Positions 12,567-20,523 of a stretch of DNA of 31,620 bases are shown here, piece by piece; the stretch's first letter is position 1; each line of letters opens with the position of its first letter. Below the pieces are notes generated by a model. It ran no database searches and was not told the origin of the DNA. It was given only the letters and a program-made list of their open reading frames with translations. The translations under genes and the position numbers were made by a program. The stretch comes from a virus. Location: the IMG/VR virus record IMGVR_UViG_3300027836_000026, positions 1-31,620 of that record, one strand, 5' to 3'.

Positions 12567-13181
12567 TTACCCTTTTGCTTTTTTAAGTGCTGAACGCACA
12601 GTGGATGACATTTGGTTAGCCAACCAGACACGCTGATCAGCTTCCAATGCCTGTTCATCAATCATTGCAAGGGACTCTGCTGCCTTCCCCTGGTTGACCA
12701 ATTCTTCTACGCTACTTGCCAAATCACGCAAGAAACTCTTAATGTCCTCAGGAAGGTCGTCACCAATGCCACCACGAGGGGTTACAACAGGTGCTGTACC
12801 CTTGACCCCAGTAGTTGCATCCAACGCATCGTGTTCAACGATTTCAAGCGCTGCAACCCACAAATAGCGTCTAAGGTAGGTCTGTACTGCCCCAAGGTTT
12901 TGGACCTCGTGACAGCCCTTTAAAGCTGCGCTAGACATAGGTGTTTCAATGACGATCATCTCTTCTGGTTTGTCGTTGTTGACAATCCGCATGTCTGCTG
13001 TTTCTTTGCCAAAGCTGATGATGGCTGTCAATCCAACCTCATCCAAAATTCTTAAGGCTGGAATGATGAAGTCACCAAGCTCAAAGTATTTGTAGCCAGC
13101 AAACTTGTTGTGGCCTGACTTTTTCAATTCAATACTGTGAAACTTATGACGAGCATCATTAAGTTTTTTATAGACATTCAT
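12567..13181 (-). CDS. erf: ERF family single-strand annealing recombinase
   Basis: The 204-residue product begins MNVYKKLNDARHKFHS. It contains HNKFAGYKYFELGDFIIPAL, IVIETPMSSAALKGCHEVQN and LGAVQTYLRRYLWVAALEIV, the ERF core for annealing complementary strands during phage recombination or circularisation. The frame stays open upstream to 13298, but GGAAAG lies seven bases before the ATG at 13181, and the upstream gene ends at 13186, so that start is chosen. The C-terminal part after residue 140 is a Pro/Gly linker and a helical tail. It forms a recombination pair with the SSB-like gene just downstream. Confidence 0.9.
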   Translation of the reverse strand: MNVYKKLNDARHKFHSIELKKSGHNKFAGYKYFELGDFIIPALRILDEVGLTAIISFGKETADMRIVNNDKPEEMIVIETPMSSAALKGCHEVQNLGAVQTYLRRYLWVAALEIVEHDALDATTGVKGTAPVVTPRGGIGDDLPEDIKSFLRDLASSVEELVNQGKAAESLAMIDEQALEADQRVWLANQMSSTVRSALKKAKG

Positions 13182-13185
13182 TGCA

Positions 13186-13422
13186 TTACTTTCCAAATGT
13201 TGCATCGTATTCATCTTGAATGATGTCACGTTGGGTGTCATCATCAAAGTCTTCAAAGTTGATAAAGTGGTTTTCCTCGCAGCATGAGCGCTTGTCATTG
13301 CGGGGCTCTAAGCAGTAAGGGCAGTACTCCACACCCTTGAGATCTTCTTTCGCTTGTTCTAAAAAGTCTTTCATGTGTTCCTCTTGACGTTGGACTGTTT
13401 CATAAAATTCTTGTTGGCTCAT
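13186..13422 (-). CDS. Small acidic protein with Cys cluster (zinc-ribbon-like)
   Basis: This is a 78-residue protein if it starts at the ATG at 13422, which overlaps the stop of the preceding 50-residue gene (ATGA). The frame is open up to a GTG at 13485, but those starts lack a Shine-Dalgarno sequence. The N-terminal 35 residues form a Gln/Glu-rich helix (SQQEFYETVQRQEEHMKDFL). CPYC and, ten residues on, CC could bind zinc, and the C-terminus is strongly acidic (FEDFDDDTQRD). The role is unknown; its place just upstream of ERF suggests recombination or regulation. Confidence 0.6.
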   Translation of the reverse strand: MSQQEFYETVQRQEEHMKDFLEQAKEDLKGVEYCPYCLEPRNDKRSCCEENHFINFEDFDDDTQRDIIQDEYDATFGK

Positions 13423-17896: not shown

Positions 17897-18369
17897 GAAA
17901 GAAAAGCAAATACAAACCCAAGGGTGTACGGCTAGATGCTGTTAACTGGGTACTAGCTGGCATGAAAAAGGTAGGAACACTACCAACTGCTGGTGTTGGT
18001 CTAAAGTTGAAAAACCATGAAGCTTTGGATTCCATCATGACAGGCCAAGGAACAAGGGCTCATGTTGATGTGCTGATCCATGCTGTGAACATGGCAGAGG
18101 CTTTGATCCGTATTCGTGATGATTTAGGTGCTGATTGGGCAACAGAGATCAGAGCCGCTCAAGACGCCATCTACACAATGGGTAAACGAGGTGTGGAGAG
18201 GAACCGTTTTGCCTTTACAGGACCAGAGATGACTGCTGTGAGGGTGGTGATGGATGTCCATGATGCCCAGCTAGATGATTGTTCCGTGAAGGAAATGGAA
18301 AAGGCTTTGGAGCTGGTTGCGGAAGAGATCCGGCTGAAGAAGTGCCGACCAATCGTGGAGACAGCATGA
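17893..18369 (+). CDS. Conserved phage hypothetical protein
   Basis: This 158-residue protein has a very basic N-terminus (MRKKSKYKPKGVRLDAVNWV) and an all-helical body (HVDVLIHAVNMAEALIRIRD, GADWATEIRAAQDAIY, KEMEKALELVAEEIRLKK). It starts and ends in ATGA overlaps. The basic KYKPKGVR start is a motif I recall from many phages of aquatic betaproteobacteria. Its role is unknown, though nucleic-acid binding or transcription control would suit the basic start. Confidence 0.6.
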   Translation: MRKKSKYKPKGVRLDAVNWVLAGMKKVGTLPTAGVGLKLKNHEALDSIMTGQGTRAHVDVLIHAVNMAEALIRIRDDLGADWATEIRAAQDAIYTMGKRGVERNRFAFTGPEMTAVRVVMDVHDAQLDDCSVKEMEKALELVAEEIRLKKCRPIVETA

Positions 18370-18641
18370 TGGACGATCCATACCACTACGAAAAGCCTGA
18401 ATGGTTGGTACTCAAGCAAAGGGAACACAACCGCAAGTTAAGAGAGAAGCGACTAGGTAGGCCAATAGGAACCTGGGGTGGTAAACGTCAGGGTGCAGGT
18501 CTGAAGAAAAAGACAGAAGAACCCAAGTACACCAACCTAATCGCATTAACTCTAAACAGCATCCAAAAACAAGTACTCATAGAAATGGGTAATGGTGATC
18601 TGGATACTGGTGTACAGAACTTAATCAACCAACACATTTGA
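18366..18641 (+). CDS. Putative small DNA-binding protein (GGKRxGAG motif, RHH-like tail)
   Basis: The ATG at 18366 overlaps the upstream TGA; the longer frame from 18279 overlaps the previous gene and is rejected. The 91-residue product is basic, with LGRPIGTWGGKRQGAGLKKK in the middle, a motif common at the N-terminus of phage ribbon-helix-helix-like proteins. A NLIALTLNSIQKQVLIEMGN strand-helix and a second helix follow. This fits a CopG/Arc-type repressor fold, which is inferred from the pattern. It may regulate neighbouring operons. Confidence 0.5.
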   Translation: MMDDPYHYEKPEWLVLKQREHNRKLREKRLGRPIGTWGGKRQGAGLKKKTEEPKYTNLIALTLNSIQKQVLIEMGNGDLDTGVQNLINQHI

Positions 18642-18650
18642 AAGCAAAGC

Positions 18651-19037
18651 ATGACTAAAACAGAAATCCTTGACCACTTTGCCTTGTACGCAATGCAAGC
18701 GCAAATTGAAAAAATGGGAATTACAAACCCGTTTGCTATGGCTCAGACATCGTATCGGTTAGCAGTAGAAATGCTAGAGCACCGTGACCGCATATTGCGA
18801 GAGTGGCAAAGGGATCAAGAGATGCAACACAAGCAATTAAATTCTGACATTAAAGAGCTTGATTTGCCAATCAGGTATCACCGATGCTTGGTTTCTGAGC
18901 AAATCATGATGAAGCAAGATCTTTGTAACTGGACGGAACGTGAGATGAGAAGGATTCCAAATTTAGGAGTTAAGGGATTGCAATTTGTTAAAGAAGCAAT
19001 GGCTTTGCATGGATTGAAATTTAAAGGCCAAGAATGA
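18651..19037 (+). CDS. Protein with RNA polymerase alpha-CTD-like domain
   Basis: This is a 128-residue protein. Residues 67-122 read like the bacterial RNA polymerase alpha C-terminal domain: IKELDLPIRYHRCL, then a helix with TEREMRRIPNLGVKGLQFVK and EAMALHGL. Aligned by eye to E. coli alpha, Arg265 (here Arg75), Cys269, Leu270, Gly296 and Lys298 are kept, while Asn268 is Arg, Ser299 is Gly and Glu302 is Phe. The first 66 residues are helical and not alpha-like. It might bind promoter DNA or compete with host alpha-CTD. The fold match is strong; the function is inferred. Confidence 0.75.
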   Translation: MTKTEILDHFALYAMQAQIEKMGITNPFAMAQTSYRLAVEMLEHRDRILREWQRDQEMQHKQLNSDIKELDLPIRYHRCLVSEQIMMKQDLCNWTEREMRRIPNLGVKGLQFVKEAMALHGLKFKGQE

Positions 19038-19198
19038 TTGAACAAAAAAAAGATGCTATTGGAAACCCACCGTACTGGGTTTGCACAAAATGCAACTGGG
19101 CTTTCCATGTGTTGCAGGAAGCCAACAGACATCAGTGCGGGATAACAAACAAAACAACTCCAACCTATGTGAGTTATTCAAGGAAAAGCAATGATTGA
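19034..19198 (+). CDS. 54-residue zinc-finger-like protein
   Basis: An ATGA overlap starts this frame, and its stop lies eight bases inside the next gene. The peptide starts MIEQKKDAIGNPPYWVCTKC and continues with NWAFHVLQEANRHQC, so C-x2-C and a later H and C give a complete zinc-ligand set. The C-terminal 19 residues are Thr/Ser/Lys-rich. It directly follows the alpha-CTD-like gene and could be a transcription or nucleic-acid cofactor, which is inference. Confidence 0.65.
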   Translation: MIEQKKDAIGNPPYWVCTKCNWAFHVLQEANRHQCGITNKTTPTYVSYSRKSND

Positions 19199-20496: not shown

Positions 20497-20523
20497 AGAC
20501 CTCCTAACCGAGGTCTTTTTTTT
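20497..20523 (+). terminator. Intrinsic terminator of the rightward early operon
   Basis: AGACCTC at 20497-20503 and GAGGTCT at 20510-20516 form a perfect 7-bp stem with a six-base loop, followed by an eight-T run. It lies 22 bases after the last rightward early gene. Strong by inspection. Confidence 0.85.

Follow-up and report, generated by a model that had tools for sequence, protein, structure and literature searches.

A small gene of an aquatic phage encodes a real copy of the C-terminal domain of the RNA polymerase alpha subunit (alpha-CTD) joined to a small helical phage domain. The gene was analysed within a stretch of 31,620 nucleotides of viral DNA (the window), and its reading frame lies exactly where a preliminary description of the sequence had placed it (Table 1). 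Related genes on other viral contigs carry the same pairing, which is joined in two different layouts and is often found among phage recombination genes.

Sequence and fold of the alpha-CTD

Residues 56–117 of the encoded protein scored 49.5 bits with PF03118 (curated cut-off 23.8 bits; E 3.4e-13), and no other gene of the window's 31,620-base virus record matched this model. A phmmer search against solved chains returned alpha-CTDs, the best being 3gfk (E 7.9e-9). NCBIfam RpoA models were matched in their C-terminal part only, far under their full-length cut-offs, and the alpha N-terminal domain (alpha-NTD) is absent from the 128-residue protein. The AlphaFold model, built from an alignment of 35 distinct relatives (A2), has a mean pLDDT of 91 and comprises helices at residues 3–22 and 27–63 followed by the alpha-CTD, with a pTM of 0.66 that leaves the orientation of the domains uncertain. 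Among the Foldseek matches listed, the top PDB rows were RNA polymerase alpha, and VIA-align gave 1z3e as the best match (Z 11.8, 1.4 Å over 62 residues), with helix-hairpin-helix (HhH) domains of Dmc1 and RAD51 as the first non-polymerase rows (Z 8.2–8.9). This fold margin over Dmc1/RAD51 is modest, yet the sequence homology is clear. The preliminary description had proposed an alpha-CTD-like domain, and Pfam, phmmer, Foldseek and VIA-align agree on it; the model superposes better on RNA polymerase alpha (Z up to 11.8) than on a different HhH fold, the RAD51/Dmc1 rows scoring below the best RNA polymerase rows. A chance match is excluded: PF03118 was recovered, at an E threshold of 1 and with a best value of 2.2e-15, in each of the 35 distinct full-length relatives, and the pLDDT, the Foldseek rows and the low dN/dS values given below point the same way.

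Table 1 Features of the alpha-CTD gene and its surroundings in the window.
Feature	Coordinates	Strand	Basis and remarks
Phage alpha-CTD protein gene, 128 aa (P0001)	18651..19037	+	ORF, ATG to TGA; PF03118 E 3.4e-13; 56 related viral-contig loci
N-terminal helical hairpin, residues 1–52	18651..18806	+	Diverged RDYFAA-type phage domain by profile match, hhalign and model helices 3–22 and 27–63
alpha-CTD, residues 56–117	18816..19001	+	Pfam, Foldseek, VIA-align
R75 codon (E. coli R265)	18873..18875	+	Invariant, 35/35 relatives
R101–K108 codons (E. coli 291–298), including N104 and G106	18951..18974	+	HhH turn and DNA contacts; E. coli contacts according to PMC7822876
C2HC zinc-finger-like protein, 54 aa (CTKCNWAFHVLQEANRHQC)	19034..19198	+	Start overlaps alpha-CTD gene stop by 4 nt; metal binding putative
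Core gene, left flank of insertion, GGKRQGAG basic protein	18369..18641	+	Start set at likely ATG
Core gene, right flank of insertion, 108 aa	19191..19517	+	ORF list, flank comparison
Terminator-like hairpin	20497..20516	+	Consensus match; closes the rightward gene run holding the alpha-CTD gene

Residue conservation and selection

Adding 190 to a window residue gives its E. coli equivalent. As the preliminary description had read them, R75, C79, L80, G106 and K108 keep R265, C269, L270, G296 and K298, and R78, G109 and F112 replace N268, S299 and E302. Column counts over the 35 distinct window-family sequences revealed that R265, C269, L270, E273, N294 and G296 are invariant (35/35), that the K291 position is Arg in 27 and Lys in 8, and that the K298 position is Lys in 33 and Arg in 2. 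The N268 position is Arg in 31 sequences and Asn in 4, the S299 position is Gly in all 35, and the E302 position is Phe in 21, Leu in 8 and Tyr in 3, with three others; N268 and S299 are present in all eight RpoA rows fetched for comparison. The DNA-contact set is kept and its neighbours N268 and S299 have drifted in a lineage-specific manner. Positions 259/261 and 287/288, which we take to be sigma- and activator-contact determinants, vary across the window family and a second subfamily described below, and the DNA-contact surface is common to both. Position 259 is acidic in 35/35 window-family sequences, with D, N or E at 261.

At the E. coli rrnB P1 promoter, R265 and N294 of the alpha-CTD reach into the minor groove and phosphates are contacted by K291 and K298 (PMC7822876), and substitutions of N268 abolish or reduce function in E. 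coli (PMC11434276). Since N268 is mostly replaced by Arg and S299 always by Gly, the affinity or specificity of the phage domain may differ from that of E. coli, and N268R and S299G are available as natural variants at positions conserved in RpoA. Comparison of 12 pairs in two halves gave dN/dS of 0.00–0.20 in the 22 of 24 comparisons for which dS was computable, and of 0.02–0.12 for the alpha-CTD half in the 10 of 12 pairs for which it was; the gene is under purifying selection.

The N-terminal hairpin

The preliminary description had called the N-terminal region unrelated, and this has to be revised, as profile search, PHROG and hhalign match it to a group of small phage proteins. The profile of residues 1–52 recovers proteins with the pattern TLRDYFAAKAMQ...AYxxADAMLxAR, here termed RDYFAA proteins after a name coined in the present analysis and found nowhere as a name in the open-access literature searched. 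These proteins match PHROG 2201, 37111 and 20565, to which no function is assigned there, and less strongly a PHROG that carries the label transcriptional regulator (30599, best E 5.5e-6); in named phages, the domain is mostly annotated ‘hypothetical protein’. An hhalign comparison of the window hairpin with the RDYFAA set (1 of 12 rows dropped) gave a probability of 96% and 33% identity over 43 columns, with an E-value that refers to a single comparison, and indicates homology of residues 5–47 to the RDYFAA two-helix region. Directly compared with PHROG, the window protein matched only phrog_2869 (E 0.24), and phrog_2201 was matched by 18 of the 35 relatives with E values no higher than 1 (best 0.0022). 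VIA-align rows on the window model cover residues 64–128 and give no fold name for the hairpin. These profile matches place the N terminus, as a divergent member, in a PHROG 2201-like hairpin family that is widespread in phages and uncharacterised.

Two layouts of the alpha-CTD and hairpin

Scans of viral contigs returned 57 loci. In 56 of these the architecture is complete or present in truncated form; the distant L072 was left out of the window family. Identity to the window protein ranges from 55 to 98% across the 34 other A2 rows. A second subfamily of 24 loci has the same domain order, and the predicted fold of one member (L203) resembles that of the window protein. In its 19 residue rows (24 loci minus 4 partial ones and L194), R265 is present in 19/19, and the alpha-CTD is more RpoA-like, with S299 in 17/19 and E302 in 19/19, and with Lys at 259 and Asn or His at 261 in 15/19. 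The best PDB matches of this subfamily are RpoA chains, presumably of gammaproteobacterial species. Two loci (L206 and L207) combine a second-subfamily start with a window-like xKG turn and, by these sequence features, bridge the window family and the second subfamily.

A different layout was found in L277, in which an alpha-CTD stretch lies inside the loop of an RDYFAA hairpin and aligns to E. coli RpoA 240–324, with a best E of 1.7e-29 (PDB phmmer) and 61% identity to Salmonella RpoA. Four loci (L385 and L390–L392) have a start near-identical to that of L277 and a similar end, and lack the insert. Among 30 distinct RDYFAA cores, counted before the last, query-biased scan from which these four loci came, L277 alone has a long loop (>55 residues), the others having at most 38 residues; across all loci, two long loops were present in 77 RDYFAA cores and both are alpha-CTDs, with no other loop domain among the cores sampled. 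The alpha-CTD and the hairpin have thus been joined in two layouts, as a C-terminal fusion in the window family and second subfamily and as a loop insertion in L277. That phages made this join more than once implies that the pairing probably does a job, and we consider it probably functional.

The near host-like alpha-CTD within the RDYFAA loop is encoded at L277:2043-2504 and also in L380 and L381; the gene overlaps the ERF and YqaJ genes by a few nucleotides. In L382–L384:3001-3438, the loop of an RDYFAA protein holds another alpha-CTD insert, which is more diverged and in which the K298 position is apparently Val.

Genomic context

Neighbours were counted at 54 loci (the window and 53 of its 56 relatives, the 5'-truncated L068, L069 and L071 being left out), near-identical contigs being counted separately, with neighbour classes defined by short motifs and representatives checked by Pfam (ERF 2e-20, SSAP_Sak 1e-37, YqaJ 3.7e-28). 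An annealase (ERF or Sak) lies within 150 nt upstream in 27/54 loci and a YqaJ exonuclease within 700 nt downstream in 27/54; both are present in 24 loci and at least one in 30. A C2HC gene is adjacent in 19/54 loci, and a recombination or C2HC neighbour was found in 45 of the 54, leaving nine with neither kind, among which L015, L019 and L039 have a C2HC gene 463 nt further on. The sharing of the arrangement by two unrelated annealase families argues that it reflects more than the descent of one operon. In the window itself, the alpha-CTD gene adjoins neither an annealase nor an exonuclease, and the ERF gene (12567–13298, minus strand) lies away from it. Window-type loci and the second subfamily are both outside the recombination operon; of 20 loci of the second subfamily (24 minus 4 partial), 16 have a C2HC gene immediately upstream. 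Homology of the two C2HC groups is not claimed, as their comparison gave a probability of 98% with a misplaced row (L190) and of 14% without it.

The slot preceding YqaJ was surveyed in the best 80 loci of each of two scans (160 loci, 5 without an upstream ORF being dropped). In the remaining 155, an annealase lies directly before YqaJ in 68 and an RDYFAA-type protein in 28, nine of the latter with an alpha-CTD and all 28 recovered by the RDYFAA profile, the rest being mixed small ORFs. RDYFAA-type proteins, with or without an alpha-CTD, are therefore the commonest small residents of this slot in the sample. The slot is variable, so the neighbours may reflect an insertion hot spot.

Several further arrangements were recorded. 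An XF1762-family gene (L019:10384-10854, NCBIfam 5.4e-51) lies between the alpha-CTD and C2HC genes of L019, and in L015 and L039 the alpha-CTD gene is followed by a sequence starting like this gene, with L183:8849-9373 (minus strand) also listed. Homologues of the window's C2HC gene occur without an adjoining alpha-CTD gene at L179:7494-7691 and L180:7627-7782.

Distribution and accessory status

The insertion in the window consists of the alpha-CTD gene and the 54-aa C2HC gene. From 80 terminase relatives, 33 contigs of at least 37 kb were searched, and three carried PF03118. In 18 regions fetched from the 30 PF03118-negative relatives, the flank genes lie within 60 nt of each other or overlap in nine, are separated by other sequence in seven, and do not show this arrangement in two. 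The alpha-CTD gene is accessory. Gene position had suggested a late regulator, a reading that was abandoned since 30 of the 33 long relatives, records whose completeness is unstated, lack the gene.

The closest named phage by terminase is MW202484.1 (80.9%), in which a profile search found no alpha-CTD. A tblastn search of 50,697 named phage records returned none with the full window protein, its matches being RpoA-like genes, many in bacterial-looking records, and three Microbacterium phage proteins. Scans of the genome collection, in which the family alignment or the terminase served as query, returned no relative and so indicate no host, and the window protein was unmatched in PADLOC. Six records filed as phages (L213–L218: OR846589, OR847224, OR844994, MT835508, MT836419 and MT837710) contain rpoA-like genes, with frames of 314–327 aa open in five and one cut by the contig end, and are probably host contigs. 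A third phage alpha-CTD-like protein (L063:3764-4135, minus strand) has Met at the R265 position followed by a WIGLT-type tail, and stand-alone alpha-CTD ORFs outside the window family occur on viral contigs at L396:2920-3303, L397 and L404:2860-3189.

Proposed role and alternative explanations

We favour, at what we judge to be even chances, a tethered minor-groove DNA-binding adaptor acting in early phage DNA metabolism and regulation. A free-standing alpha-CTD, derived from bacterial rpoA, would have been joined to the small phage hairpin; the alpha-CTD half would grip A/T-rich minor-groove DNA with the residues that RNA polymerase uses at UP elements, and the hairpin half would attach it either to itself or to another protein; tethered in this way, a weak DNA binder would become useful in trans within the phage early DNA-metabolism and regulation programme. 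Given the operons, the phage recombination machinery and host RNA polymerase are nearly equal candidates for the partner. As each layout attaches the alpha-CTD to a different end of the hairpin, the secondary structure points to a flexible tether as more likely than a rigid joint. Against an adaptor in a recombination operon, the window's own alpha-CTD gene lies outside that operon.

The preliminary description had offered a decoy or an adaptor that redirects host polymerase. The adaptor fits an alpha-CTD carried on a separate helical domain and redirection is possible, although the gene neighbourhoods speak at least as strongly for DNA recombination, with an annealase and/or YqaJ in 30/54 loci but not in the window. 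A pure decoy is less likely, given the retained DNA-contact surface and the variation at the positions that we take to contact activators.

A transcription adaptor is a possible though doubtful alternative, in which the hairpin would bind host RNA polymerase or sigma, and the alpha-CTD would supply a further contact, with DNA or an activator, that either biases transcription towards phage promoters or substitutes for the host alpha-CTD. The domain itself is an RNA polymerase domain, the window family has acidic 259 and D, N or E at 261, RDYFAA proteins weakly match the PHROG labelled transcriptional regulator, and phages are known to target the alpha-CTD, with T4 Alt/ModA ADP-ribosylating R265 (PMC2988021) and LUZ19 Rac having the host alpha-CTD cut off (PMC7552054). 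However, a protein without an alpha-NTD has no known way onto the polymerase core, the acidic 259/261 pair is lost in 15/19 second-subfamily rows, and a sigma-70 promoter scan of the window was uninformative, as it found 8 promoter-like sites where shuffled sequences gave 17.6 on average.

Domain-fusion (‘Rosetta stone’) logic would extend the link to RDYFAA mini-proteins in general, which would act with the alpha-CTD of host RNA polymerase, some phages having captured it, on one or more occasions as a C-terminal tail and on one or more within the loop. We consider this unlikely; if true, RDYFAA proteins would be a large unrecognised class that links the host polymerase with recombination or gene control in the phage.

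We regard as quite improbable a DNA-binding HhH module that belongs to an accessory protein of recombination or replication, its tie to transcription gone, which would leave the recombination branch of the tethered adaptor alone. The presence of ERF or Sak upstream with YqaJ downstream in 24/54 loci and the RAD51 and Dmc1 HhH domains as next fold matches would suit such a module, but the sequence stays alpha-CTD-like in 35/35 relatives and both the window-type loci and the second subfamily are outside the recombination operon. A soluble decoy that sequesters host activators, UP elements or factors aimed at the alpha-CTD and so shuts host transcription down is highly improbable, since, despite the kept fold and the nearly host-like copy in L277, the positions we take to contact activators diverge between subfamilies and a decoy needs neither the conserved hairpin nor the recurrent place between annealase and exonuclease.

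Comparison with known systems

The alpha-CTD is a meeting point of RNA polymerase with many bacterial activators and with several phage takeover proteins. The window protein shares with the polymerase domain (PF03118) its fold, its HhH and the R265, C269, K291, N294, G296 and K298 positions, but differs from RNA polymerase alpha in lacking the alpha-NTD, in its fusion to a phage hairpin and in the window-family changes at N268 (mostly Arg), S299 (always Gly) and E302 (mostly Phe, Leu or Tyr). RDYFAA-type phage proteins (PHROG 2201, 37111 and 20565) share the two-helix region and the pre-YqaJ slot, but normally lack an alpha-CTD, and their motif has diverged to LLDHFA...YRxAxxM...R in the window family. 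Two further phage examples, LUZ19 Rac (PMC7552054) and T4 Alt/ModA (PMC2988021), act on the host alpha-CTD but are modifying enzymes rather than alpha-CTD copies.

Phage alpha-CTD proteins are already known as automatic annotations, and membership of PF03118 is not new. A protein of an uncultured Caudovirales phage, A0A6J5MNY7, belongs to the same family (128 aa, 58% identical over 128 columns) and is known by name alone, as ‘RNA polymerase, alpha subunit, C-terminal’ in BFVD/UniProt; several further phage proteins carry alpha-CTD names in BFVD. An alpha-CTD-like stretch is also present in gp24 of Microbacterium phage Morrill and in further actinophage proteins named for the alpha-CTD, but their N-terminal part differs and the C269 and K298 equivalents of Morrill gp24 are changed. 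The open-access literature yielded enzymes acting on the alpha-CTD (Rac and Alt/ModA) and no functional study of a phage-owned one. A phage family that owns an alpha-CTD with selected DNA contacts, repeatedly joined to a hairpin, offers a direct way of probing what that hairpin does. What is new relative to these known proteins is the recurrent fusion pattern, the loop insertion with its insert-free siblings and the annealase–alpha-CTD–YqaJ arrangement.
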